Assembly: GCA_035506275.1 (NCBI GenBank)
Contig: DATJPT010000001.1
Coordinates: 1-64,000 of the forward strand
Source of the DNA: Bacteroidota bacterium
GTDB lineage: Bacteria > Bacteroidota > Ignavibacteria > UBA10030 > UBA8401
Length of the DNA stretch: 64,000 bases
Reading direction: 5' to 3'
The notes below the pieces were generated by a model that made no database searches, was not told the origin of the DNA, and saw nothing but the letters and a program-made list of their open reading frames with translations. Each line of letters starts with the position of its first letter. Within the stretch, counting starts at the first letter, position 1. Positions 1,097-25,223 of this stretch are shown piece by piece. The translations under genes were made by a program, and so were the position numbers.

Positions 1097-1552
1097 GTTG
1101 TTCCTCCTCTGTCACAAATTCCGTAGTGTCAATATGCGAATCGGATCAATTATAATTGTCTCCATTACATACGTAAATCGAAAAAATCCAACGCTGTGGA
1201 AGATCGTTTTATGGGGAATCTTTCGCCTGGGTTTGTTGTCCCGACTGGGTCATACTCCGCTGAATCAACCAGGTGACTTCTGGGGGAAGAAATTTATGAA
1301 GAGTAAGGATGTGAAAGAATGCCCCATTTGCCCCATGTGCTGGGGAGTAGTGTATGATTAATTGCAATTAAATGCAAGTATGAGAATTTGACTCCGTTCC
1401 CAATCGGAGAATGGGAGCCAGTACACCCTTCCCCCAAACGGGCCAATCGTGAGGCTAGAACACTCCCCTTCCCCCGCCAACTTTGCAATTGCTTCGAAAA
1501 ATGAATAAATTGGATGGAATTTTTAACGCAAAGATTCGGAAAAACGCTCACC
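1097..1552. other. Intergenic region between divergent genes
   Basis: About 455 bases separate the leftward FG-GAP gene from the rightward sugar dehydrogenase, so promoters for both should lie here; none could be placed with confidence. The only structure seen is the hairpin repeat at 1394-1419, followed by a C-rich stretch to about 1480. An 88-codon open frame at 1095-1361 shows no recognisable protein features. Confidence 0.5.
1394..1419. repeat. Hairpin repeat, GTTCCCA-N9-TGGGA type
   Basis: CCGTTCCCA, a 9-base loop, then TGGGAGCC forms an imperfect hairpin (the outer pairs include a G-T wobble). The loop length and the TTCCCA/TGGGA arms match the two hairpins at 48381-48403 and 48441-48467, so this looks like a degenerate member of the same dispersed family. 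Confidence 0.45.
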
Positions 1553-2560
1553 ATGAAGAAAATCACCTTTGGAATTATCGGTTGCGGCAGGATAGCCCAG
1601 CGGCATGCCGAGCATATCAGCAAAATGGCAGAGTTAAAGGCGGTCTGTGACGTCAAACAAGAAAGAGCCAAGGAACTGGGGACAAAATATTCGTGCCGTC
1701 AATATTTTAAGATCGACGATCTGCTGGCCGCAGAAAAGACGATCGACGTCGTTTCGATCTGCACGCCGAACGCATTCCACGCCGAACACACGATCAAGGC
1801 GCTTAATGCGGGGAAGCATGTCCTCTGCGAAAAGCCGATGGCGCTGACGACCTCGGATTGCCGCAACATGATCACCGCGGCGGAGAAGTCGAAAAAAAAT
1901 CTCTTCATCGTCAAACAGAACCGCTTTAACCCTCCGATCGTGGCGATGAAAAAAGCCGTCGACGATGGGAAACTCGGGAAAATTTACAGCGTCCAATTGA
2001 ATTGCTTCTGGAACAGGAACGACCGCTACTACGAAGAGTCGGATTGGAAAGGGAAAAAAAATCTGGACGGCGGGACGCTGTACACGCAGTTCAGCCATTT
2101 CATCGACTTGCTCTATTGGATGGTCGGGGATGTAGAGAGCGTCCAGGCGATAACGAAAAATTTTGCCCATCCGAAAACCGTTCAGTTCGAGGACACGGGA
2201 GTCGTTCTCGTCCGATTCGCAAACGGAGCGATCGGCACGATCAATTACACGGTGAATAGTTTTAAGCGGAATATGGAAGGGTCGATCACCCTCTTCGGCG
2301 AAAAAGGGACGATCAAGGTCGGCGGGCAGTATTTGAACGTGCTGGAACACCAGGCGATCGACGGCTATGAAATCAAGGACGTCCCGCAGGGGGCTCCGGC
2401 CAACGAATACGGGTTCTACCAGGGCTCCATGTCAAACCACGATAAAGTCTACGCGAACGTCATCGATGTTCTCTCGAACGACGCGCCGATCGCCACCGGC
2501 GGCGGCGAAGGAATGAAAACCGTTGAAATCATCGAAAAAATCTACGCGCAAAACGCTTAG
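1553..2560 (+). CDS. Gfo/Idh/MocA sugar-nucleotide dehydrogenase, WlbA/WbpB-like
   Basis: This NAD(P)-dependent oxidoreductase probably oxidises C3 of UDP-N-acetylglucosaminuronate, the first dedicated step toward UDP-2,3-diacetamido uronic acids. The N-terminal Rossmann motif is [12 protein letters not shown]. The family signature CEKPMAL carries the catalytic Lys, and the substrate-domain motif [18 protein letters not shown] matches the WlbA subgroup. The ATG at 1553 gives [10 protein letters not shown], the normal family start; an upstream in-frame ATG at 1514 would add 13 unconserved residues. It heads an operon with an acyltransferase and an aminotransferase, the same trio that makes GlcNAc3NAcA in Pseudomonas and Bordetella. 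The family is firm; the exact substrate is inferred from context. Confidence 0.88.
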
Positions 2561-3179
2561 AACTACTGCGACCTACAAGGTTCATCCCAACGTCGCTATC
2601 GGCCGGAACGCGGTGATCGAAGACTACGTCATCATCGGCGTCCCTCCGCGGGGGAAGAAATCCGGGGAACTGCCGACGACGATCGGGAACAATGCGGTCA
2701 TCCGCTCTCACACGGTGATCTATGCGGGAAATACCATCGGGGATAATTTCCAGACCGGACATCACGTGCTGCTGCGCGAAGAGAATCGTATCGGGGACAA
2801 TGTCAGCATCGGAACCTCGTCGGTGGTCGAACATCACGTGACGATCGGCTCAAACGTGCGCATCCACACCAGCGCCTTCGTGCCGGAGACATCGATTCTC
2901 GAGGATGGATGCTGGCTTGGACCTCATGTGGTCATCACCAATGCACTCTATCCTCTCTCTCCGAATGTCAAAAAAGAGTTAAAAGGAGCGATCGTCAAGA
3001 AGAACGCAAAGGTCGGGGCAAATGCGACGCTCCTCCCGGGGGTGACGATCGGGGAAAATGCTCTGGTCGGCGCTGGTTCGGTGGTCACAAAAGATATTCC
3101 CCCGAACAGCGTCGTCGCCGGGAACCCCGCCAGGACCATCAATAAAATATCCAATCTCCCGTATAAGAAAGTGCAATGA
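2523..3179 (+). CDS. Left-handed beta-helix acyltransferase, WbpD/WlbB-like
   Basis: Probably acetylates the 3-amino group made by the neighbouring aminotransferase. Hexapeptide repeats run through almost the whole chain ([49 protein letters not shown]), ending in the VVAGNPAR motif usual in WbpD-type N-acetyltransferases. No ATG fits. The TTG at 2523 overlaps the dehydrogenase by 38 bases and is the longest option; a GTG near 2612 would remove the first coils. At 218 residues it is slightly longer than typical members (about 190). It overlaps the next gene by ATGA, so the trio is probably translationally coupled. Confidence 0.82.
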
Positions 3180-4288
3180 ATATTCCTCTCGTAGACTTAA
3201 AGAGCCAGTACCTTTCCATCAAAACCGAAATTGACAATGCCATTCAAGGCGTGCTTAATCAGACCGATTTCATCGGCGGCAGCGCCATCAAGTCATTTGA
3301 AAAGTCGTTTGCAGAATTCTGCGGGATGAAATACGCGGTCGGGGTGGGCAACGGAACGGACGCGATCCACCTGGCGCTCCGGGCCTGCGGCATCGGAAGC
3401 GGCGACGAGGTCATCACGGCGGTGAATATTTTCATCGCCACCTCCGAAGCCATCACGGCAGCCGGCGCGAAGCCGGTCTTTGTCGACAACGATCCGTCGA
3501 CATATACGATCGACGCGACAAGGATCGAGGAGAAGATCACTCCGAAGACTAAAGCGATCATCCCCATCCATCTTTACGGCCAGCCGGCCGACATGGAACC
3601 GATCCAGCAGATCGCAAAAAAGCATAACCTCATCGTCATTGAGGACGCGGCACAGGCGCATGGAGCGACATACAACGGAACGAAGGTTGGAAATTTCGGA
3701 AAGGCGGCCTGTTTTAGTTTCTATCCCGGAAAAAATCTCGGAGCGTACGGCGACGCGGGGGCCGTCGCAACGAACGATGAGAAATTCGCCGAGCATGTCA
3801 GAATGCTGGCCAACCACGGGCGCCTGGAAAAATACGAGCACAAGATAGAGGGGTACAACAGCCGGCTCGACACGCTCCAGGCGGCGATCCTCAACGTCAA
3901 GCTTCGCTATCTCGGTGAATGGGTCAAGCGGCGGCAACTTCACGCTTCACATTTTGATCGATTGCTGCGCGGTCACGATATTGTCTCGATACCGGCGGTC
4001 AGGAAAAACTCGACTCACGCCTACCATCTTTATGTTGTGCGGGTCAATAATCGCGAAAAGGTCCGCGCTCATCTCAAGGAAAAGGGAATCGCCACCGGCA
4101 TCCATTATCCGATTCCTCTTCACCAGCAGCCTGCATACCGTTACCTGAATTATCGAACTGGCGACTTCCCCGTCGCCGAACGCTACGCGCCCCAGATTCT
4201 CAGCATTCCGCTTTACCCCGAGCTTACCGATGCTCAGGTTGAATATGTCGCCGCCGCGCTGATCGAAGCGTGCAAAACCAACCCGTGA
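3176..4288 (+). CDS. DegT/DnrJ/EryC1/StrS PLP-dependent sugar aminotransferase
   Basis: Transfers an amino group to a 3- or 4-keto nucleotide sugar using PLP. The Schiff-base lysine is K186 in [16 protein letters not shown], and the cofactor-binding Asp lies in [10 protein letters not shown] (residues 155-164). The length of 370 is normal. The ATG overlaps the previous stop as ATGA. By operon position it should aminate the product of the upstream dehydrogenase. However, the [16 protein letters not shown] signature is closer, from memory, to FdtB/QdtB/DesV-type 3-aminotransferases than to WbpE, which the gene at 5775 resembles more. Fold is certain; substrate is not. Confidence 0.88.
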
Positions 4289-7571: not shown

Positions 7572-10367
7572 TCAGCGGGACGATTTGACGACGACCAGCG
7601 TCAGGTCGTCGTGCGGTTCAGCGCCGGCGCGAAACTTCTGGACCGAGGTAAGAATCGATTTCTGCAGATCTGCTGCGGTGAGCGTCCGCCCCGATTGCAC
7701 GACCTTGTGCACGGTCTCTTCGCCGAATTGGTTATTTCTCTCGTCCATGGCTTCAGTCAATCCGTCCGTGTAAAAGACAAAGATCCCGTCTTTGGTGAGG
7801 GGCTTGCGGATCTCCTGCAGTTCCTCCTCAAAAATTTTCCCGCGTTCCAACCCCAGACCGATGCCATGTGCGTCAAGGAATTGCAGCGTGCCGTTCACCC
7901 CGATCAGGGCTTTATTGTGCCCGGCGCGGCAGATGCGCACTTCCTTTTTCTGCAGGTCGAAGACGGCAAGGATCATCGTAATGAATGCTTTCCGCTCCAT
8001 CCCCTCGAAGATCCGGCGGTTGATATGGACAAGCATTTCTTTCGGCGTTTTGTACATGTGGGCGGCGAGCTGCACCATTCCCTGGATCTTCGACATGTAC
8101 AGCGCCGCCGACATTCCCTTTCCCGAAACATCGGCAACGGCGACGAGAACTTTTTTTGCCCCCAGCTGGATGTAATCAAAATAATCCCCTCCGACCGACA
8201 TAGCGGGAATTGAAATTCCGGACATGTCAAGGCCTTTGACCGCCGGAATTTTCTTCGGGAGCAATCCTTCCTGGATCCGGCGGGCGATGTCCAGCTCGTG
8301 CTTGATCCTCTCCCGCTCGGCAAGTTCTTCGTACAAAAACGCATTCTCGATAGCCACTGAAGCCTGCTTCCCGGTCGAAGAAAGGAGCTGCAGATCCTCC
8401 TGCTTGAAGGTCGACTCCGATAATTTTTCTCCGACGAAGACCGCGCCGATCAGCTTCTCCTTCGACCGGATCGGGATGACGTACTGGAATTCTTGCTGAC
8501 GAAAATTCTCTTTGATGTCCACCGGCAGATAATCGACGCTGAATTCCCCCTTGAATTTTTGGATCGCCTCCACCAGTCGTCTGTCGGTGAGGAGGCAGAA
8601 TCTTTTCCACGAAGTGCCGTCAAAACCCTGAGTCTCCGTGCAGCAGCAGGTGTGTTCGTCCCGGAAGAAGACGATGCCGGCGCGCTTCAGCTTCATCAGC
8701 TCGCTCAGTTTTTCCACGATGCCGCGGGCCAGGTCCACCATGCCCAGCCTCGTCCCCATCACCTCGGCGAGTTCATTTGCGGCGCGGCGATAATCGTAGC
8801 GGGCACGGTCATACAGCCGGTCGATGAACTCCTGCCCCTTTCTTCCGACAAGTCCGATCGCGAGCGTGAGCAATCCGGCCACTGCCATCAATACCGCTTT
8901 TTCGAACGGCTCCTGCTGCCCCGGCAGCGACGGCGTGCTGAGAATCTCAATCGACGTCCCCGTGAGCCTGACGTTGGGCAAATTTAATTTAACCTGCGGA
9001 AGGGTGAGGAGGATTTCGATCGCGGCCGCGGCCAACGCCAAGATCCAGGCCCATGAAATAATGGAGTATTGAATATTCCGCCGCACGCGCAGGTCAAGGT
9101 CAAGCAGCCGGTACCGGCCGATGGAGTAAAGGTGCGATAATGGAATGGCGGCCAGGAAGGCTCCCATGTACCCGAAATATGTCTGGCTGCTTGTCGTGTT
9201 GACGAGGTATCCGCACACGATCACAAGCACCATCGCAACGACCGAAACCCAATTGATGATGCGGGATAGTTTTTTGTACTCATGGCCGGCCTGCTTCCAG
9301 AAGAAAATCGAGACGGCGGCGATCGCCAGAACCATAATGCCTATGCACAGCAAGGCGGTATTTCCTTTGAGCAGCATCGTCGCCGTCACCGACAAAGCGG
9401 CAAGCACATACATGACGATCCGCAGCCACGGGCGCGAGAGCAGCTCCGGCCTTTCGATAGGAAAGTAGATCCTGCTGTGAAACGTGAGCGCGATGCCAAA
9501 GAAGAGGGCACAGACCATCGTAAATCCGCGCACCAGAACGAACCAATCGACGTAGACGTCCCTTTGAAGGAGCGTCACGACAACGAAAAATCCGAACACG
9601 AGGAACGAAAGTCCGAGGAGCCGGGCGGCCTTCAGTCCCGGGCGCTTGAGCGACAGGAAGGTTCCGGTGACCATATACAATATTCCCGACAGGAAGACGA
9701 CGAGAAGCGAGATCGGAAACCCGAACGCGGCAAGGGTGACGTTCAGCCGCAATGTCTGATTGCCGCGGAGGATCTCATAGACGATCGACTTTCCGATCTG
9801 TCCCTGCCGCATGATGGAATCAGCTTGAAGAACATTGTTGAACCCATGTCCGTTGATCCTCAGGATCAGGTCGCCTACCTTCATGCCAGCGCGGTCCGAC
9901 GCCCCCCCTTCGGTCACGTCGCAGACGTTCGCTGTCGGAGGAATGACCCGCACCAGAGCGGAAGAAAACCCCCGCTTCCGGACTTTGAGGATCATCCGGG
10001 CTGTTTCGGTCGACCGGTCGACCGTCACGACAAGTGAATCACCCGCATTCTTCGCAACGATGCCGTCAACATCCGAAGGATCCGAGACGCTGTGATCGTT
10101 CACCGAAACAAGAAGGTCTCCAACGCAGATTGAATCGACGTTGCGCGGCGCTACTGTTGCCAGGGCGATATAGGAGGATCTCTTGACGACAGCGCCCGGG
10201 AGACTCCTGACAAAATAGAGGGTCGACGAAGAATTCATGAACAAATTCTCATCGGTCGGCGAGCTGGCGTAGCGATAGAATGCGACTCCACCGAACGCGA
10301 ACAAGTACAGTGCCAGCGCGCCGATCAGAATCCTGACAACACGGGGATGTTCGTCAAAATATTTCAT
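7572..10367 (-). CDS. Membrane PDZ-PDZ-GAF-PP2C (SpoIIE/RsbU-type) phosphatase
   Basis: A 931-residue signalling protein. Order: an N-terminal membrane helix (about 11-31); two periplasmic PDZ-like modules (about 60-125 and 140-212, the second with GASDRAGMKVGDLILRINGH); about eight or more membrane helices (about 215-520); a GAF-like domain (about 550-690); and a PP2C/SpoIIE serine phosphatase domain (about 710-930). The phosphatase metal motifs are VGGDYFDY, VADVSGKGMSAAL, FYTDGLTEAM and HDDLTLVVV. Such enzymes dephosphorylate anti-sigma-factor antagonists in partner-switching pathways. PDZ modules suggest sensing of exported peptides or envelope stress. No anti-sigma partner lies nearby. 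It is divergent from the flippase gene. Confidence 0.88.
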   Translation of the reverse strand: MKYFDEHPRVVRILIGALALYLFAFGGVAFYRYASSPTDENLFMNSSSTLYFVRSLPGAVVKRSSYIALATVAPRNVDSICVGDLLVSVNDHSVSDPSDVDGIVAKNAGDSLVVTVDRSTETARMILKVRKRGFSSALVRVIPPTANVCDVTEGGASDRAGMKVGDLILRINGHGFNNVLQADSIMRQGQIGKSIVYEILRGNQTLRLNVTLAAFGFPISLLVVFLSGILYMVTGTFLSLKRPGLKAARLLGLSFLVFGFFVVVTLLQRDVYVDWFVLVRGFTMVCALFFGIALTFHSRIYFPIERPELLSRPWLRIVMYVLAALSVTATMLLKGNTALLCIGIMVLAIAAVSIFFWKQAGHEYKKLSRIINWVSVVAMVLVIVCGYLVNTTSSQTYFGYMGAFLAAIPLSHLYSIGRYRLLDLDLRVRRNIQYSIISWAWILALAAAAIEILLTLPQVKLNLPNVRLTGTSIEILSTPSLPGQQEPFEKAVLMAVAGLLTLAIGLVGRKGQEFIDRLYDRARYDYRRAANELAEVMGTRLGMVDLARGIVEKLSELMKLKRAGIVFFRDEHTCCCTETQGFDGTSWKRFCLLTDRRLVEAIQKFKGEFSVDYLPVDIKENFRQQEFQYVIPIRSKEKLIGAVFVGEKLSESTFKQEDLQLLSSTGKQASVAIENAFLYEELAERERIKHELDIARRIQEGLLPKKIPAVKGLDMSGISIPAMSVGGDYFDYIQLGAKKVLVAVADVSGKGMSAALYMSKIQGMVQLAAHMYKTPKEMLVHINRRIFEGMERKAFITMILAVFDLQKKEVRICRAGHNKALIGVNGTLQFLDAHGIGLGLERGKIFEEELQEIRKPLTKDGIFVFYTDGLTEAMDERNNQFGEETVHKVVQSGRTLTAADLQKSILTSVQKFRAGAEPHDDLTLVVVKSSR

Positions 10368-13600: not shown

Positions 13601-14551
13601 ATGATAGATCCTTCCTGTATCGTTTGTAAGGCGCAACCAATTAGAAGGTTCAAAAAAAGAATATTTGATTCTGTTGAATCATATATCTATGAATGCCCTT
13701 CGTGCGGTTTAGTGTGGAGGGATCCTATCCCCACCGCTGAGCAACTTGAAAACTATTACTCAAGCAATACATTTCGATACCCGGACAAGGTGCAAAAGGA
13801 AATGGCCGAAAGCCAGCGAGACTTCATATTACGAGCCATGTCAAAATTGCCGCACCCCCCATCATTCAGATTCGTCGAGTATGGTGCGGGAAATGGATGG
13901 CTCGTCAAGATTATGTCTGGATTACCTTGGATTTCTTTTGCGGCGGGAATTGAACCCGATCTGGAATCTGTCATTCAAGCAAGAGAGTTTCTGCGTGTAA
14001 ACATGTACAATGGATTCATGGGTCAATATCCTTTACCTCATGATGATCACTCTGAACCCACACTTGTTGCCCTCTCACATGTGATGGAGCATTTACCCAA
14101 CCCTCTCTACGCCTTGGACTTTTTTATCCAGACATTCCCAAAGCATTTTTTGTTCATAGAGGTCCCAGATGGCAATCTCGAAAAGAAAGCCATTTTCGCG
14201 GACCTTTTTCTACCGACTTCGCTCGACCAGCATTTGTGGGAATTCGATCACGAAAATCTGACTCGGATGCTGCAGAACAAAGGATATACAATGATTTGTA
14301 GCGAGACGATAGGTGCAAAAGGTTTTTGGAAAGTCTCCATGAAATCAAACAGTATCATGCGGATGCATATTGACATTTGTGATGAGTGGAATAGAACGGG
14401 CAGGGGGCCGGGTATCAAAACTCTCAGACGATATGCTCGACTTATGCTAGAGTTGTTCCATTTCCTTATTCTTGCTGCGGTTTCTAACGTACGTGCGTTT
14501 CGCAGGTCGGATTATCCCTCCTTACGGATTATCGCCTCATATCAGAAATAA
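13601..14551 (+). CDS. SAM methyltransferase with N-terminal zinc ribbon
   Basis: A 316-residue class I methyltransferase. Residues 6-9 (CIVC) and 32-35 (CPSC) form a two-knuckle zinc ribbon, followed by GLVWRDPIP, an arrangement common in sugar and small-molecule methyltransferases (Methyltransf_23-like). The SAM motif FVEYGAGNGW is at 91-100, and HVMEHLPNP is the post-motif segment. It probably methylates a sugar or nucleotide sugar of the glycan. About 180 bases without a gene precede it. The next gene starts 16 bases after it. The SAM domain is firm, the target unknown. Confidence 0.8.
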   Translation: MIDPSCIVCKAQPIRRFKKRIFDSVESYIYECPSCGLVWRDPIPTAEQLENYYSSNTFRYPDKVQKEMAESQRDFILRAMSKLPHPPSFRFVEYGAGNGWLVKIMSGLPWISFAAGIEPDLESVIQAREFLRVNMYNGFMGQYPLPHDDHSEPTLVALSHVMEHLPNPLYALDFFIQTFPKHFLFIEVPDGNLEKKAIFADLFLPTSLDQHLWEFDHENLTRMLQNKGYTMICSETIGAKGFWKVSMKSNSIMRMHIDICDEWNRTGRGPGIKTLRRYARLMLELFHFLILAAVSNVRAFRRSDYPSLRIIASYQK

Positions 14552-14567
14552 ACGACTCAATTCATCA

Positions 14568-15722
14568 ATGGCGAATATATTGGTAACGCAATCAGGAATG
14601 AAACATAGCATTGGAATGATGCGGTCGTTAGCTCGTCAAGGACACGCGGTGTATGGCCTCATAAATCCGGGAGAAAAACAACCTCTGTCAAAGTATAGCA
14701 GATATTGTCGGCAAGTATATAATGTGCACCAGGAGGACGAAGAGGCGTTCGTGAAAGATATTTTTCGCCTTTTGGAGAAATATACATTCGATGTGTTAGT
14801 CCCTATCGGATTTCCCGTCACTCATTTCGTTGCAAAGCACCAGATCGAAATCAGCCAATATGCCAAGATTGTCGTGCCTAACATCGAATCAGAAGAGATC
14901 GCTTGCGATAAGTTCAACATTCAAAAGATCGCCATGAATGTGGGGGTGCCAACACCCAAAACGTTTCTTATCAAAAATACTGAAGATATTGCCGATGCTA
15001 TAAAAGAAGTTGGACTTCCAATAATCATAAAAGGAAGGCGGGAAAGCGGGAAAGGAATTGTTGCGACGGCGAATAGCAAAGTAGAGGCTTTTCATCAATT
15101 CTATTCTCTCGTCGAGAAATACGATCTGGCGCAGGACGATTACCCTATTGTGCAGGAATTCATTCACGGCTGGGGGTGCGGATTTTTTGCAATATACGAA
15201 CAGGGAGAGTGCAAGAGGATATTTATGCATCGGCGCATACGCGAATATCCGCCAACAGGAGGGGTGAGTTGTTGCGCATGCTCATTCAACGATCCTCATC
15301 TTGAGCTCTACGGACGAAAACTTCTGGACGCTCTGCATTGGAACGGGGTTGCAATGGCTGAATTTCGATACGATGAGAGCAAACATGATTACTCATTGAT
15401 TGAGGTTAATGCAAAATTTTGGGGTTCACTGGAATTAGCATTAGCAGCCGGCGCCGACTTTCCGGCCGATTATGTAAAAATCGCTACCGGCCAAGAACTT
15501 GATTACACAAGTGAATACAAAATGACGACGTATCAATGGTTACTATCAGGAGATTTTTTGCATGGCCTCAAACGACCATCGGCCATCCCCTTCATAATAA
15601 TGACCGCGTTCAATCCTAGAGTCCATAAGGATTTTTTAGGCATTGATGACCCTTTCGTCCTGATCATTCGGTGTCTCAAATTGTTAAGGGACTCCATACT
15701 TGTAATATTCAGATTACGTTAA
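14568..15722 (+). CDS. ATP-grasp ligase, surface-glycan associated
   Basis: A 384-residue ATP-grasp protein of the carbamoyl-phosphate-synthase-like class. Such enzymes join a carboxylate to an amine through an acyl phosphate. Visible parts are an N-terminal preATP-grasp Rossmann-like segment (1-105), the ATP-binding loop PIIIKGRRESGKGI with K155, and the metal-binding segment LIEVNAKFWGS with E279 and N281. The ATG at 14568, 17 bases after the previous stop, yields MANILVTQSG; a longer frame from 14472 would overlap the methyltransferase. Flanked by a PHP protein and a deacetylase-like protein, it may attach an amino acid or similar group to a glycan sugar. Confidence 0.8.
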   Translation: MANILVTQSGMKHSIGMMRSLARQGHAVYGLINPGEKQPLSKYSRYCRQVYNVHQEDEEAFVKDIFRLLEKYTFDVLVPIGFPVTHFVAKHQIEISQYAKIVVPNIESEEIACDKFNIQKIAMNVGVPTPKTFLIKNTEDIADAIKEVGLPIIIKGRRESGKGIVATANSKVEAFHQFYSLVEKYDLAQDDYPIVQEFIHGWGCGFFAIYEQGECKRIFMHRRIREYPPTGGVSCCACSFNDPHLELYGRKLLDALHWNGVAMAEFRYDESKHDYSLIEVNAKFWGSLELALAAGADFPADYVKIATGQELDYTSEYKMTTYQWLLSGDFLHGLKRPSAIPFIIMTAFNPRVHKDFLGIDDPFVLIIRCLKLLRDSILVIFRLR

Positions 15723-15762
15723 TTTCTCTAATGGCGTATATTCTGGAATGAAGTAATACTCG

Positions 15763-16521
15763 ATGACTAATATGCGTACTCTCGCGTTTCATATACACAC
15801 ATCTGCTTCTTACGACTGTTTTGCTTCTCCGGCTACGGTCCTGCACTATTGTCGGGATCATAAGATTCAATCGATATGTGTCACTGACCACGATACAATC
15901 CAAGGTTCAATCCAGGTGGCAAAACTTGCCAAAGAATATGGAATTCAGGTAATTATTGGTGCCGAGTATCATACCGAAATCGGAGATATCATTGGATTGT
16001 TTTTGCAAGAGGAGATTACATCCAGAAAATCAATAGAGGTCATTCGAATGATCAAGGGACAAGGTGGAATTTCCGTCCTTCCTCATCCTTTTCAAAGTCA
16101 TACATTGAACGACGAGATATTAAACGCAGTGGATGTCATCGAAGTTTTCAACTCCCGGTGCGGGTCAGAGCAAAATGCGCGGTCACTCGAACTAGCCCGG
16201 CGTTTGGACAAACCAATGGTCGCAGGGGCCGATGCTCATTTCACCAGCGACATCATGGATTGTGTCATCTCGTTTTCTATCGATCGCGAGTTGATTCCAA
16301 ATGATTTTTTATCCACTCCTCGATCGTGGGCGGCTGTATCAACCAACCCCCTCCGGATGCGATTATCACAGGTTACTAAATCGGTTAAAACAAACAACCC
16401 GTCGCTAATGGTCAGCTCGGTTCGCAGTTTTATCTACACAACAATCCACGAACTAGTTCTTCCGCCACGGTGGAAAAGGGAAATGGTTCGAAATGAATGG
16501 AAAAGAGGAGCAAATGCCTGA
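15763..16521 (+). CDS. PHP-domain metal-dependent phosphoesterase
   Basis: A 252-residue PHP protein. All metal-binding motifs are present: HIHTSASYD (residues 10-18), TDHDT (41-45), GAEYHTE (66-72), LPHPF, and GADAHFTSDI near 175. This architecture hydrolyses phosphate mono- or diesters in a trinuclear metal site. It lies between the ATP-grasp and deacetylase-like genes and overlaps the latter by 8 bases, so the three are probably made together. Substrate unknown; a phosphorylated glycan or ligand precursor would fit. A second in-frame ATG lies three codons in. Confidence 0.82.
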   Translation: MTNMRTLAFHIHTSASYDCFASPATVLHYCRDHKIQSICVTDHDTIQGSIQVAKLAKEYGIQVIIGAEYHTEIGDIIGLFLQEEITSRKSIEVIRMIKGQGGISVLPHPFQSHTLNDEILNAVDVIEVFNSRCGSEQNARSLELARRLDKPMVAGADAHFTSDIMDCVISFSIDRELIPNDFLSTPRSWAAVSTNPLRMRLSQVTKSVKTNNPSLMVSSVRSFIYTTIHELVLPPRWKREMVRNEWKRGANA

Positions 16522-17782
16522 AACCAAACACAGTACGAGAGATCAGCACTCGTATCGATTCATTCTACGTGTTCTCAACGGCATTGTGCCTATTAATGAA
16601 ATCGATCCCTCGATTTTGTCGGACACTTTCCGTGAGATCGCGCGACTGGAAGAAATTGAAAAACCGATTCGGGACACATGGGGTAATTGGGATTGGCAGT
16701 ATGCGGACGCACAAAGGAATGGGACATTGTATCAGCCAACGCTCGACAAGAAGATTTCTAAGTTACAAAAGCAGTTGAAAAAACAATTGCCTTATCCTCG
16801 ATGGCCTAATGGTAAGAAATTTGCCGTTTGCCTGACTCATGACGTGGACTTTGTCTCTCAAATTGCATTGAGCCGGAAAGCCGCATGGCAAGCTCTCAAC
16901 GGCATGAGGCGTGCGAAAATTACGCCACTCAAGAAATCGACAAATGTGGTCCGGCTTCTTGGCCAATTCATGCTGCAGCCTCTGCTTAGGAGGGGGAAAA
17001 ATGATCCACTATGGAAATTCGAGCAGTGGCTTGAATTAGAAAATTCTTACGGTTTCCATTCGACCTTTTATTTTTTTCCTGCGCCGGGTTCGCACGTTCA
17101 CGAATGGGATTGCTCATACCAGTTATCAGATAGTATTGTTTACGGCCGTAAAAAAATGTCAGTGCAGGAAATGATTCATGAAATTGACAAGGCGGGTTGG
17201 GAAATAGGGTTGCATGGAAGTTATCATTCGGCGTTGAATGAAAAATTACTTTCCGCGCAAAAGGCAGAAATAGAGGACGCTACTGGAAAAGCTATCATCA
17301 GCACACGCCAGCATTATTTGCATTACGATGTTCGCCTGACACCGAACCTTCAAGAACGCGTCGGTTTCAAAACTGATTCAACTCAAGGATTCAACAGATC
17401 AATAGGCTTTCGGGCGGCAACCAGCTTTCCTTACACCTGCTGGAACCACGCAGAAGAACAGCCATTGTCAATACTTGAAATTCCTCAACATATTATGGAC
17501 GGGGGTTTATTTACTAATAATGCTTTAGAATATGACGCTGACCTTGCGATAAAGCACTCGATCCAATTGATGGACGAAGTTGAAGCTGTGGGAGGGTGTT
17601 TAACTTTGAGCTGGCATCCACACAACATTGTAAATGAAATGTGGTGGCAAGTCTACAAAACGCTGATTGAAGAAGCCCATCATCGAAATGCCTGGGGCTG
17701 CTCAGCCGGTGAGATCTACAATTATTGGGAAAAGAATGAAACAGCCATAGTACAATCATCGCACGCTGAAATAGGACAATAA
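16514..17782 (+). CDS. Polysaccharide deacetylase-like (NodB-fold) protein
   Basis: About 422 residues. The motif LTHDVDFV (residues 107-114) is the DD-type metal site seen in the HDVD subgroup of NodB-like proteins, and IGLHGSYHSA supplies the H-x3-H pair. LSWHPHNI near the end resembles the last catalytic motif. An AGAGGAG site 3 bases before the ATG at 16514 favours this start; ATGs at 16493 and 16497 are further in-frame or nearby options. There is no signal peptide, so it should act in the cytoplasm, unlike secreted deacetylases. It abuts asnB directly. Confidence 0.78.
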   Translation: MPETKHSTRDQHSYRFILRVLNGIVPINEIDPSILSDTFREIARLEEIEKPIRDTWGNWDWQYADAQRNGTLYQPTLDKKISKLQKQLKKQLPYPRWPNGKKFAVCLTHDVDFVSQIALSRKAAWQALNGMRRAKITPLKKSTNVVRLLGQFMLQPLLRRGKNDPLWKFEQWLELENSYGFHSTFYFFPAPGSHVHEWDCSYQLSDSIVYGRKKMSVQEMIHEIDKAGWEIGLHGSYHSALNEKLLSAQKAEIEDATGKAIISTRQHYLHYDVRLTPNLQERVGFKTDSTQGFNRSIGFRAATSFPYTCWNHAEEQPLSILEIPQHIMDGGLFTNNALEYDADLAIKHSIQLMDEVEAVGGCLTLSWHPHNIVNEMWWQVYKTLIEEAHHRNAWGCSAGEIYNYWEKNETAIVQSSHAEIGQ

Positions 17783-19768
17783 ATGTGCGGCATTACAGGA
17801 ATACTGTCGCGGCAAGGCGGGCAGATCGACCCCGCAACACTCCTCTCCATGACGAACAGCATCCGCCACCGCGGTCCGGACGATGAGGGGTACCTTCTGG
17901 TTGACATGGCCTCCGGCAAGTGCGAGCAGCGGGCGGGAACCGGCTCCGTTTCTGCCGCCAAGGAACTCCATCACTCTATCTCTGCTTCGTCGCCGGACTC
18001 CTTTTCCCTCGGACTCGGCTGGCGCCGCTTAAGCATCATCGACCCTTCCCCTTCCGGACACCAGCCGATGTCGAATGCTGATGGTACCGTGTGGCTGATC
18101 TTTAACGGAGAGATCTATAATTACATTGAACTCCGGGAACAGCTTGCCGTGAAGGGATATCGGTTCAGGACGAAGACTGATTCAGAAGTCATCATCCATG
18201 CGTATGAGGAATGGGGAACCGAATGCCTCTCCCGCTTCAACGGGATGTGGGGATTCGCGCTGTGGGATAACCGAAAGAAAACCTTGTTCTGCGCACGGGA
18301 CAGATTCGGCGTCAAGCCGTTGTATTATTTCAAAAACGATAACACGTTTGCTTTCGCCTCCGAGATCAAAGCCCTGCTGATTCACCCCGGCGTTGCACGC
18401 AGGACCAACGATCAGATCGTCTATGATTATCTGGCGTACGCCGTCATTGACCATACGGACGAGACATTCTTCTCCGCCATCAAGCAGCTCCCCCCCTCCC
18501 ACTATCTCATCGCCGATGCCTCGGGTCGATTTACGGTCAACCGGTATTATACGTTGGCGTGCAATGACGAGCCCGGCAGTTACGACGAATCGCACAATAA
18601 AAAATTTGCGGAACAATTCAAGGAGCTGCTGTATGATTCAATCAAGCTCCGGCTGCGCACCGATGTGCCGCTGGGAAGCTGCCTGAGCGGTGGGCTCGAT
18701 TCTTCCACTATTGTCTGCATCGCGAACGAACTGATGTTCAAGAACGGTGTTATCGACCGGTCGCTCATCGGCGAACACCAGAAAACGTTCACGGCAGTCT
18801 ACGACAATGCCGCATTGAGCGAGAAGCCGTTTGTCGACCGAGTCATCGCCCGCACAAACGCCGAACCGCATTTCGTCCGGCCGGATGGGAAGCTGCTGTG
18901 GGAAGAACTGCGAAAGGTCGTCTACCATCAGGATGAACCGTTCAATTCGACGTCCGTCTACGCGCAGTGGAACGTGATGCGCCTTGCGTCGGAGCACAAG
19001 GTGACGGTGTTGTTGGACGGCCAGGGGGGGGACGAGCTGCTCGGCGGTTATGCATGGCACACACCGATCTACCACTCACAGCTCCTTCGCCGCGCCCGTC
19101 TCGGCGCTCTTCTAAACGAATTGGCCGGAACTAGGTCCGTCACAAATCTGCCGGTATATCGGCAACTCGTTGCATTGCTTGGGAAGACCGGCAGGGATTT
19201 TCTTCCTTTGTCGGCATATCAACAGATCGTCCCCGGTATCGCCCTGATGGATCCGGAATTCTCATCCATCCACGGAAAGAAATCAACGGTGGTCGAAAAA
19301 CGGAATGACAATCTTCAGGCGCGCCTGCTCCAGGAAGAAACAGCTTTCAACCTCCAGCAGCTCCTTCATTACGAGGACCGGAACTCAATGGCATTTTCGA
19401 TCGAAGCGCGCGTCCCCTTCGTCGACTACCGCGTTGTCGAATACGGGATGAGCATTCCCGTTTCGTACAAAATTCACAACGGCTGGTCGAAGTATCCGCT
19501 GAGATCCGCCGGGGAAGGGATATTGCCGAAAGAAATTCAGTGGCGCAAAGATAAAATGGGCTTCGTGACCCCGCAAAACGAATGGATGGTGGGCCTGCTC
19601 CCCGCAATTCGCTCCTTCCTTAGGGACGAGCCCCTTCGCTCACGGCGATTCTTCGATCAGCCCGGACTCCAGAAACGGCTTCACAGCGATCCGCCGTCGA
19701 TTGCCTACCCCGTATTGTGGCAGATCCTCAACCTCGAAATGTGGATGAGAGTTTTCGATGTCGAATAG
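17783..19768 (+). CDS. asnB: Asparagine synthetase B-type glutamine amidotransferase
   Basis: A 661-residue class II amidotransferase. MCGITGIL gives the N-terminal nucleophile Cys2 after Met removal. RHRGPDD and NGEIYN are glutaminase-site motifs, and LSGGLDSSTIVC is the PP-loop that adenylates the carboxylate. The ATG follows the previous stop with no gap. In surface-glycan loci such proteins often amidate uronic acids rather than make asparagine (for example WbmE in Bordetella, from memory). With the diacetamido-uronate pathway at 1.5-7 kb, that role is attractive here. GC content rises again from this gene. The symbol denotes the family only. Confidence 0.85.
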   Translation: MCGITGILSRQGGQIDPATLLSMTNSIRHRGPDDEGYLLVDMASGKCEQRAGTGSVSAAKELHHSISASSPDSFSLGLGWRRLSIIDPSPSGHQPMSNADGTVWLIFNGEIYNYIELREQLAVKGYRFRTKTDSEVIIHAYEEWGTECLSRFNGMWGFALWDNRKKTLFCARDRFGVKPLYYFKNDNTFAFASEIKALLIHPGVARRTNDQIVYDYLAYAVIDHTDETFFSAIKQLPPSHYLIADASGRFTVNRYYTLACNDEPGSYDESHNKKFAEQFKELLYDSIKLRLRTDVPLGSCLSGGLDSSTIVCIANELMFKNGVIDRSLIGEHQKTFTAVYDNAALSEKPFVDRVIARTNAEPHFVRPDGKLLWEELRKVVYHQDEPFNSTSVYAQWNVMRLASEHKVTVLLDGQGGDELLGGYAWHTPIYHSQLLRRARLGALLNELAGTRSVTNLPVYRQLVALLGKTGRDFLPLSAYQQIVPGIALMDPEFSSIHGKKSTVVEKRNDNLQARLLQEETAFNLQQLLHYEDRNSMAFSIEARVPFVDYRVVEYGMSIPVSYKIHNGWSKYPLRSAGEGILPKEIQWRKDKMGFVTPQNEWMVGLLPAIRSFLRDEPLRSRRFFDQPGLQKRLHSDPPSIAYPVLWQILNLEMWMRVFDVE

Positions 19769-23273: not shown

Positions 23274-25223
23274 GTGAATATCATAAAATTCTGCACTCTT
23301 GGAATTCGAACGGCTGGGCCTGTTCGATTCCTCTCCATCGTTGCATTGAAGGCATATCGGGCGGCTGCGGAACGACACCGCAACAAAACGCTGCGCCTCG
23401 GCTGCAAACAATCCCTCGCTTCAATTTCATTCAACGGAACGCTTCCTCTGGAACAAGAAGCCGGAGCCCGGTTCAGGTCGGCCTTTCCAGGCGCGTTTGC
23501 GTCTCTCCTTGCCGCGGCTCAATCCTATCGGGCCCGCCAATTCGAGTTCCTGGGACGGTCAATCCGGTTTGACCGAAATGTGAATTGGCACCGGGACCCG
23601 GATTCGATGAAAGAGTGGGAGAAAAGAGTTTACAGAGAGATCTCGATATACTCTGAGGGGGCTCCGGGAGACGTTAAGCTTGTGTGGGAATTGAGCCGCC
23701 ATCAATATTTTGTTACGTTGGGGCAGGCGTTCTATCTTTCAGGCGACCGGGCATATCTGGACGAGTTGGTTGCCCAGTGGCTGAACTGGATCGAGGAAAA
23801 CCCCTGTACCATCGGCATCAATTGGGCGAGTCCGCTTGAAATCGGCGTTCGATTGATCTCGTGGACGTTGGCTTTCCAATTTATTGAAGATCATCTGCCG
23901 AAAACTGTCCGAACGACAATACTCAATAGTGTCTGGGAGCAATTGACATTCCTCTCGTACCATTTGTCGCTGGACAAAATAGTCCCCACGAATCATCTGA
24001 TCGGAGAAGCCGCCGGGCTGTTTATTGCCGCATGCTCGTTTCGTTTCGACGAGTCCGACCGATGGGGGCATAGAGCACAAAGGATCCTTGAAGAAGAAAT
24101 TCTCCGTCAGGTCTTTGATGACGGAATATCAAAAGAAGAATCGTCATCATACCACCGCTTCAATGTCGACTTCTTTTTGCTGTCGTTCATTCGAGCTGTA
24201 AGATCGGGCCATCCCTTTTCGGAAGACTATAAGGGGCGGCTCGAAAAAATGATCGGCTATCTTTTCGCGATACGTACACCCGATTCCCTTCTCCCCCGAT
24301 ACGGCGACTTCGACAACGGAAGGGGATTCTCCCTTTCACCCTCAGTAAATTTTTGGGACGTACGCGGATTGATCGCTGCTGGTGGCGCGCTCTTCAAAAA
24401 CGAAGCATTTTCCGACGAATCCTTTTTCAACGAAGAAGCCTATTGGCTGCTTTCCTCCTCCGAATGGGAGGGAAAAGGAAAGAATCGTTCGGTCGTACCG
24501 TCGGAATCGGGAACGATATTCCCTCGGAGCGGTCACGTCGTCATCAAAAATCAACATTACGGAGAGTATTGTTTCTTCCGTGCGGGTGAATTTGGAATGG
24601 GGGGGAATGGCTTTTCATCACACAGCCATAATGATTTATTTTCTCCGGTCATTTATTTGAATGGATGTTCTATAATAGCAGAAACAGGAACCTCCATTTA
24701 CGTTGGAAACGATCAGGAGCGTGATTACCTCCGGTCGGCGAGAGCCCACAATGTCACAATCTCGCCGGCCTCGGATTTTTTCGAGTCAAAGCGCTGGTTT
24801 GGGTGGAAAAGAAGTCTGAACGGCAGGATTATAGGATCCATGCAAACCCGGAAAGAGATTCGGGTCGAATGCGGCTTCGATGGACCGTTTGCCGACCTCT
24901 ATAAGCGTAGTATCCGGTATGAGCCGGACCATCATCTTTTTGCCGTCGAAGAAAGCTTTACAAAGAATGTTCCTGAAGTTCATTCATATTTTCATCTTGA
25001 GCACGGAATAACAGTATCAGCAAAAGAGGGGAACGCTGACATCGTTTTGAATAATCGGACGATCGCTCACTGCCTCTTCCCACCCAGCGTACACTTGACA
25101 ACCGAACAAGGATGGATATCACGGTCATACGGCATCAAAGAATCATCGGTGATCATCCACTTCACATGGCACGCTGAGGCAGGAAAGCCAGTGATCTTCT
25201 CATTCATCGCACTTCCGGCGTAG
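23274..25223 (+). CDS. Heparinase II/III-family protein
   Basis: A 649-residue protein. A helical toroid domain spans about 100-370 (FVTLGQAFYLSGDRAYLDELVAQW is split over its helices), followed by a C-terminal beta-sandwich (about 400-640) containing the HSHNDLFSPVIYLNG and ETGTSIYVG segments typical of Hepar_II_III proteins. Family members cleave uronate-containing polysaccharides by elimination. Homologues are common inside capsule and exopolysaccharide loci, where they may trim the polymer. No signal peptide was recognised. The GTG start at 23274 has no clear Shine-Dalgarno site. It fits a uronic-acid-containing product. Confidence 0.8.
   Translation: MNIIKFCTLGIRTAGPVRFLSIVALKAYRAAAERHRNKTLRLGCKQSLASISFNGTLPLEQEAGARFRSAFPGAFASLLAAAQSYRARQFEFLGRSIRFDRNVNWHRDPDSMKEWEKRVYREISIYSEGAPGDVKLVWELSRHQYFVTLGQAFYLSGDRAYLDELVAQWLNWIEENPCTIGINWASPLEIGVRLISWTLAFQFIEDHLPKTVRTTILNSVWEQLTFLSYHLSLDKIVPTNHLIGEAAGLFIAACSFRFDESDRWGHRAQRILEEEILRQVFDDGISKEESSSYHRFNVDFFLLSFIRAVRSGHPFSEDYKGRLEKMIGYLFAIRTPDSLLPRYGDFDNGRGFSLSPSVNFWDVRGLIAAGGALFKNEAFSDESFFNEEAYWLLSSSEWEGKGKNRSVVPSESGTIFPRSGHVVIKNQHYGEYCFFRAGEFGMGGNGFSSHSHNDLFSPVIYLNGCSIIAETGTSIYVGNDQERDYLRSARAHNVTISPASDFFESKRWFGWKRSLNGRIIGSMQTRKEIRVECGFDGPFADLYKRSIRYEPDHHLFAVEESFTKNVPEVHSYFHLEHGITVSAKEGNADIVLNNRTIAHCLFPPSVHLTTEQGWISRSYGIKESSVIIHFTWHAEAGKPVIFSFIALPA

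Follow-up and report, generated by a model that had tools for sequence, protein, structure and literature searches.

Three adjacent genes, encoding an ATP-grasp ligase, a PHP-family phosphoesterase and a VimE-like deacetylase of the NodB fold, were found in a stretch of 64,000 nucleotides (contig DATJPT010000001.1, positions 1 to 64,000, of a Bacteroidota bacterium belonging to the class Ignavibacteria), which we call the window. The members of this trio co-occur far above chance and are conserved across phyla, in bacteria as well as in archaea, and in a number of loci the place of the PHP protein is taken by other phosphatases. We think it likely that, in general terms, such systems join a phosphorylated building block to a surface sugar by amide ligation and then dephosphorylate it. 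More tentatively, we favour the view that the trio furnishes an amino-sugar of the surface glycan with an amide-linked substituent, and that this most likely happens at the level of the nucleotide sugar.

Conservation of the trio

The ATP-grasp, PHP and NodB genes lie head to tail on the + strand. The PHP and NodB genes overlap by 29 bp, and the first base of asnB (17783) is the base right after the NodB stop codon, in agreement with the initial annotation, which had described three tightly packed genes running straight into asnB. That annotation also suggested a neighbourhood survey, in which lack of conserved co-occurrence would point to chance neighbours. A GTDB-wide scan with a ligase profile gave 80 ligase-seeded loci, ranked by similarity, in which PHP and NodB were located by six-frame profile searches; PHP in L095 and L101 and a PgpA gene in L150 were detected in this way and had been missed by looser open reading frame (ORF) calling. 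The loci span Bacteroidota, Acidobacteriota, Pseudomonadota, Chloroflexota, Planctomycetota, Zixibacteria and Cloacimonadota, and also Methanomicrobiales, Halobacteria, Asgard archaea and others. Of the 80 loci, 57 have PHP at a distance of up to 4 kb from the ATP-grasp gene, 55 have NodB there and 41 have the two together, which is the opposite of what chance neighbours would give. The 649 kb within this distance contained 57 PHP and 59 NodB matches, whereas the other 625 kb of these loci had none of either kind. PHP was on the same strand as the ligase and less than 200 bp from it in 55 loci, and overlapped it or was at most 4 bp away in 47. The gene order was NodB-ligase-PHP in 29 loci and ligase-PHP-NodB in 14 (two loci with NodB on both sides are counted twice), and a Natribaculum plasmid carries the order deacetylase-PHP-ligase. 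The ligase and PHP also occur as a pair in Haloferax marinum (L131).

In the window's own phylum, relatives of the ATP-grasp protein were found in 18 and relatives of PHP in 6 of 247 genomes at the thresholds used, and the best ATP-grasp relatives adjoin PHP and NodB. The order ligase-PHP-NodB, as in the window, occurs in a genome of the same family but another genus (G240) and in one of the same class but another family (G232). A survey of 391 genomes of the same class showed that the ligase family splits into many members below 225 bits and seven above 340 bits, which include the window itself and the known G240 and G232. The other four are additional evidence, but one or more of these (L177, identical to L117) had been among the 80 loci as well. 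PHP was beside five of the seven high-scoring ATP-grasp genes and beside none of the 23 low-scoring ones (Fisher p 1.5e-4). The remaining two high-scoring genes were accompanied by HAD and PgpA, respectively, and all seven had a CE4 neighbour; HAD was found with one of the 23 low-scoring genes. In 30 dereplicated triads the trees of the proteins were correlated (r 0.79 for ligase-PHP, 0.70 for PHP-NodB and 0.53 for ligase-NodB; permutation p ~5e-4 each), with the shared ancestry of the organisms adding to these values. The gene content of the trio, its conservation and its co-inheritance are established by these observations.

Replacement of PHP by other phosphatases

A recognised phosphatase was present in 62 of the 80 loci. 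HAD (PF12710) stands instead of PHP in L053, L054, L142 and L180, the ligases of the last two being identical in a 98-row ligase tree. A dual-specificity phosphatase (DSP) is fused to the C-terminus of the ligase in L083 and L123 (56.7 and 66.6 bits) and is found next to the ligase, on the opposite strand, in L149. A low-molecular-weight protein tyrosine phosphatase (LMW-PTP) is fused to the ligase in L168-L171 (52-69 bits), and PgpA is encoded immediately 5' of the ligase in L181 (105.6 bits) and is also present in L150. In the ligase tree the HAD rows fall together in a single clade, which neighbours PHP rows within a clade of 100/99 support, the fused-DSP rows fall within a 36-row clade consisting mostly of PHP rows, and the LMW-PTP fusions make up a clade of their own. 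Taken by itself, the HAD comparison was not significant (p 0.07). Replacement of PHP is thus an observed fact and, because several unrelated phosphatase families take the same place, we regard the partner as a phosphatase; judged from these family assignments, its role is very probably dephosphorylation.

Some further arrangements were seen in these loci. The second ligase of G232 (L053:12315-13473) is read in two frames through an apparent frameshift and is followed by the HAD gene. The gene 3' of the LMW-PTP fusion in L168 (3301-3975) and L171 (3225-3995) looks like a divergent NodB (IVIHTEEEFDW) and has no Pfam match. In L066 (8353-11557) an AMP-forming ligase-like gene (Pfam AMP-binding) is followed by PHP and by a class I/II aminotransferase, and in L068 (52-2172) PHP lies directly 3' of a gene equal in length to the AMP-forming ligase-like gene of L066; possibly these two loci represent a second ligase-plus-phosphatase system with another ligase.

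The three proteins

The initial annotation had called the products a ligase, a phosphoesterase and an HDVD-type NodB-fold protein without signal peptide, and the Pfam and NCBIfam assignments, together with the hydrophilic N-terminus of the NodB protein, bear this out. The AlphaFold model of the ligase (pLDDT 92.8) has the fold of ATP-grasp carboxylate-amine ligases and matches PurK, biotin carboxylase and the L-amino-acid ligases BacD, RizA and BL00235. K155, E265, E279 and N281 are invariant in the alignment, and we take these conserved residues to belong to the nucleotide and Mg site. The carbamoyl-phosphate-synthase-like profiles PRK12767 and PRK06849 match 65 and 64, respectively, of the 65 ligases scanned, but the window ligase is far below their cut-offs and the families have no reaction assigned to them. 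Near-identical ligases occur in metagenome-assembled genomes labelled Chloroflexi and Rokuibacteriota (L144/L145) and in others labelled Kapabacteria and Ignavibacterium (L117/L118); these conflicts are likely due to misbinning or mislabelling.

In the PHP protein H10, H12, D18, D42, H43, E68, H108, E127, N130, R132, D157 and H159 are invariant among 44 homologues, and H10, H12, D18, H43, E68, H108, D157 and H159 make up the metal-binding pattern of the family (HxH, D/H, E, H, DxH). Among solved structures the closest are those of PHP phosphoesterases or nucleases (3e0f, the exoribonuclease 7ug9, 2yb1, TM0559), which share the fold family and most metal-binding positions. The window protein is shorter, and its invariant E127-x-x-N130-x-R132 stands where those enzymes read EVWH or EVA; position 130 is often His in related phosphoesterases. 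No equivalog profile scored above its cut-off with the window PHP. The top NCBIfam profile was that of the CehA/McbA metallohydrolases (53 bits vs a cut-off of 80), which matched all 44 members, as did the nucleoside-bisphosphate phosphatase profile.

With the VimE equivalog NF053580 the window NodB protein scored 93.8 bits over residues 40-393, and because this is below the curated cut-off of 440 we classify it as VimE-like and not as VimE. All 41 triad NodB proteins scanned match the VimE profile (best E 2.8e-55). The AlphaFold model (pLDDT 86.2) has the CE4 fold. Foldseek found 3rxz as the best match (E 2.1e-11, TM-score 0.70 by target) and also HP0310, PuuE and ArnD, whereas a phmmer search of the PDB with the sequence gave no useful match. 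The canonical CE4 motifs are altered: HDVD replaces TFDDG, and in motif 2 (HxxxH; H241 and H245 in the window) the second His is not conserved across the 41 sequences, in which H116, D117, D119, H241, R272, H274 and H375 are invariant. Because of these changes the catalytic details of CE4 enzymes are not transferable to this protein. Since its N-terminus is hydrophilic, it has no signal peptide.

Proposed mechanism and its precedents

Two described systems resemble parts of the trio. In the Wbp/Vim pathway of Porphyromonas gingivalis (WbpA/B/E/D, VimE, VimA, WbpS), VimE was proposed to act on a 2,3-diacetamido-uronic acid, from which it would take the C2 acetyl group, VimA to attach serine or glycine, and the AsnB-like WbpS to form the uronamide (PMC7468200). 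The window also has WbpB/D/E-like, VimE-family and AsnB-type genes, and the logic of exposing an amine and then acylating it with an amino acid (PMC7468200) is the one that we propose for the trio. Where the Wbp/Vim pathway leads one to expect VimA (N-acetyltransferase/FemAB-like), the window has an ATP-grasp ligase and a phosphatase, and nothing in the pathway as published corresponds to PHP. No VimA-like gene was noticed among the window genes read, although no profile search aimed at VimA was made. In the capsule amidation of Campylobacter jejuni HS:2 and HS:19, an ATP-grasp-fold ligase couples serinol phosphate or ethanolamine phosphate to a uronate, a phosphatase then removes the phosphate, and the next glycosyltransferase requires the dephosphorylated form (PMC13276843, PMC12409886, PMC11800379). 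This system (Cj1438C amidoligase and Cj1435 phosphatase) shares with the trio the pairing of an ATP-grasp ligase with a dedicated phosphatase, but there a TupA-like domain, fused to a GT2 transferase, serves as the ligase, and no deacetylase takes part. By analogy, the trio looks like the amine exposure of the Wbp/Vim pathway combined with ligation and phosphatase action of the C. jejuni type.

The chemistry and the substrates that we infer would be as follows. The VimE-like deacetylase would remove an N-acetyl group, plausibly from a UDP-2,3-diacetamido-uronic acid for whose synthesis the Wbp-type genes (1.5-4.3 kb) would be responsible. The ATP-grasp ligase would activate a phosphorylated small acid, for example O-phosphoserine or 3-phosphoglycerate, at its carboxylate and couple it to the free amine. 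PHP would then take off the phosphate and unmask the group, a role for which the displacement by other phosphatases argues, the substrate being our suggestion. AsnB may amidate the C6 carboxylate of the uronate, in a role like that proposed for WbpS. The exact order and direction of these steps are put forward with reservation. The initial annotation had imagined that the three proteins activate, trim and attach a substituent; in outline this stands, as ligase, phosphatase and N-deacetylase, with the difference that the 'trimming' partner is, by displacement, a phosphatase and that the deacetylase belongs to the VimE family.

Other potential sources of amines recur where the VimE-like gene is absent: canonical or XrtA-type CE4 deacetylases were found in L144, L149, L161, L163 and L165, and a DegT aminotransferase beside the ligase pair in L135 and L146. 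For this reason we favour the idea that the acceptor is a sugar amine. A diamino-uronic acid is a plausible sugar. Homologues of WbpB, WbpD and WbpE are present in the window's locus, the WbpD-like gene being closer to QdtC, and Wbp-like genes lie directly 5' of the ligase in L113 (Xenorhabdus), L121, L123, L093 and L102. With relaxed single-sequence thresholds the WbpB/D/E set was found near the triads in 7 of 49 long loci and in none of 14 control loci.

Alternative explanations

Several observations weigh against the mechanism proposed above. A VimE-like neighbour within 4 kb is missing from 25 of the 80 loci, some of which (L090, L093, L101, L122) end at a contig edge, and in 18 loci no phosphatase was recognised in the vicinity, although at least L124 and L129 among these are cut by the contig end. 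Three acidobacterial loci (L076:11109-12506, L077:11243-12490 and L078:9998-11785) have, and this without a phosphatase, a P-loop kinase-like domain (GVDGTGKSS), which lies 3' of the ligase in L076 and L077, where it matches no Pfam family, and is fused to the ligase in L078. The enrichment of DegT in NodB-less loci is weak (p 0.09). In the window the WbpB/D/E-like genes (1514-4288) are located ~10 kb 5' of the trio, and the full Wbp-like set occurs in only 7-11 of the 49 long loci, depending on the threshold, and in none at the strictest one; because of the difference between the strict and the relaxed test we regard the link to Wbp genes as suggestive only. Finally, the reaction in C. jejuni runs in the opposite direction, the phosphorylated amine being joined to the carboxylate of the uronate.

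The last point leads to the strongest competitor, in which the ATP-grasp ligase joins the C6 carboxylate of a uronic acid to O-phosphoserine, ethanolamine phosphate or serinol phosphate, PHP dephosphorylates the product and the deacetylase acts elsewhere, on the same or on another sugar. This logic is biochemically proven in C. jejuni HS:2 and HS:19 (TupA-like ATP-grasp domain, separate phosphatase), the two UDP-sugar 6-dehydrogenases encoded in the window's genome could provide the uronate, and in L066 a distant PHP has an AMP-forming ligase on one side and a class I/II aminotransferase on the other. It leaves unexplained, however, why a VimE-like deacetylase is the commonest third partner and why DegT or another CE4 deacetylase substitutes for it, and next to the trio the window showed no gene for an enzyme that makes a phospho-amine. 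We consider this scheme a serious but less likely alternative, and between the two directions we lean, with some hesitation, towards coupling of a phospho-acid to a sugar amine, giving a distinctly smaller chance to coupling of a phospho-amine to a sugar carboxylate.

The type IX secretion system (T9SS) is widespread in the phylum of the window, whereas the trio is rare there, as the counts for ATP-grasp relatives and PHP given above show, and archaea and Xenorhabdus, in which a T9SS is not expected, have it too. It is improbable that the trio makes the linking sugar which attaches T9SS cargo to the surface glycan, as an alternative to aminoacylation by VimA, and a universal linking-sugar module was rejected as unlikely on the grounds of this rarity and of the presence in archaea. 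What speaks for such a role is that T9SS cargo is encoded in the same genome (~109 T9SS C-terminal domains; 109 TIGR04183 matches), that the WbpB/D/E-like, VimE-like and AsnB genes match components of the Wbp/Vim pathway (PMC7468200), and that linking sugars and their pathways vary, as seen in Prevotella intermedia (PMC11969387). PHP could also be an amide, ester or cyclic-ester hydrolase of the CehA/McbA type, trimming or proofreading the ligation product. CehA/McbA is indeed the top NCBIfam profile, though below its cut-off, but the families occupying the same place (HAD, DSP, LMW-PTP, PgpA) are phosphatases, all PHP members match the nucleoside-bisphosphate phosphatase profile too, and the closest structures are phosphoesterases or nucleases; we judge a hydrolase role to be quite improbable. 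Glycan loci are gene-rich and quick to shuffle, and the trio is infrequent in the phylum, yet the idea of chance neighbours without joint function retains hardly any probability in view of the co-occurrence across the domains of life and in several gene orders, the overlapping genes and the correlated trees, and it is refuted by the phylum, GTDB and class surveys. A role in anti-phage defence was rejected as well, the sole PADLOC match being marginal and to PHP.

Genomic context

The coordinates of the trio and of other relevant genes are given in Table 1. The automatic ORF call puts the start of the ATP-grasp gene at TTG 14472, within the preceding methyltransferase gene; ATG 14568 is probably the start. 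The trio is surrounded by genes for a flippase, glycosyltransferases, methyltransferases, a PMT-like membrane protein, an epimerase and a heparinase II/III, the last of which (23274-25223) lies shortly 3' of asnB and glycosyltransferases, within the biosynthetic locus. AsnB is of a generic type by Pfam and NCBIfam. Because asnB is at most 10 kb from the ATP-grasp gene in only 8 of the 49 long loci, it is not a fixed part of the module, and we rejected it as a core member. The structures 3q2i and 3q2k, matched by the WbpB-like protein, are presumably those of WlbA. The gene for a 931-aa PDZ-GAF-SpoIIE phosphatase signalling protein (7572-10367, - strand) lies between the Wbp-like genes and the remainder of the glycan locus. 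Positions 1-1050 are repetitive and seem to encode the terminal part of a repeat protein on the minus strand, which the window edge truncates.

Table 1. Genes of the trio and selected genes of its surroundings in the window.
Gene product	Position	Strand	Basis and remarks
Gfo/Idh dehydrogenase, WbpB/WlbA-like (UDP-GlcNAcA 3-dehydrogenase)	1514..2560	+	phmmer to 3q2i / 3q2k, E 3.6e-74
Hexapeptide N-acetyltransferase, WbpD/QdtC-like	2523..3179	+	QdtC 167 bits; lipopolysaccharide acetyltransferase 3mqg 86 bits
DegT aminotransferase, WbpE-like	3176..4288	+	WbpE entries 324-327 bits; best matches 7b0d, 3frk
Methyltransferase, directly 5' of the trio	13601..14551	+	Methyltransf_23 (Pfam); context only
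ATP-grasp ligase, predicted amide-forming	14568..15722	+	Carbamoyl-phosphate-synthase-like / PRK06849-like; Pfam, NCBIfam, AlphaFold model
PHP-family metallo-phosphoesterase, predicted phosphatase for the ligation product	15763..16521	+	Pfam PHP and PHP_C
Cytoplasmic VimE-like CE4 (NodB-fold) deacetylase, DUF7033 N-terminus	16493..17782	+	Predicted sugar-amine exposure; AlphaFold, profile
AsnB-type glutamine amidotransferase	17783..19768	+	TIGR01536 450.9 bits, above cut-off; companion, not core

Significance

Amide-linked amino acids and related groups are widespread on surface glycans, and the enzymes adding them are mostly not known. No description of the present gene set was found in the literature searched, the coverage of which leaves out most subscription papers. 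The module consists of three named, soluble-looking proteins with a testable reaction order, and the swapping of five phosphatase families (PHP, HAD, DSP, LMW-PTP, PgpA) makes one of its steps very likely. It joins two literatures, one dealing with T9SS linking sugars and their VimE deacetylase, the other with amidation of the Campylobacter capsule by an ATP-grasp enzyme and a phosphatase. The trio might, and here we are more doubtful, represent a general pathway of bacteria and archaea, so far undescribed, in which the ATP-grasp ligase would use a phosphorylated precursor to put an acyl or aminoacyl group on surface amino-sugars, an interchangeable phosphatase would unmask the group and a VimE-family deacetylase would supply the amine. 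The route by which alanine is placed on the linking sugar of Prevotella is unknown, and several pathways may exist (PMC11969387). If our proposal is true, the trio would offer a second way of making aminoacyl linking sugars, one that does not depend on VimA.

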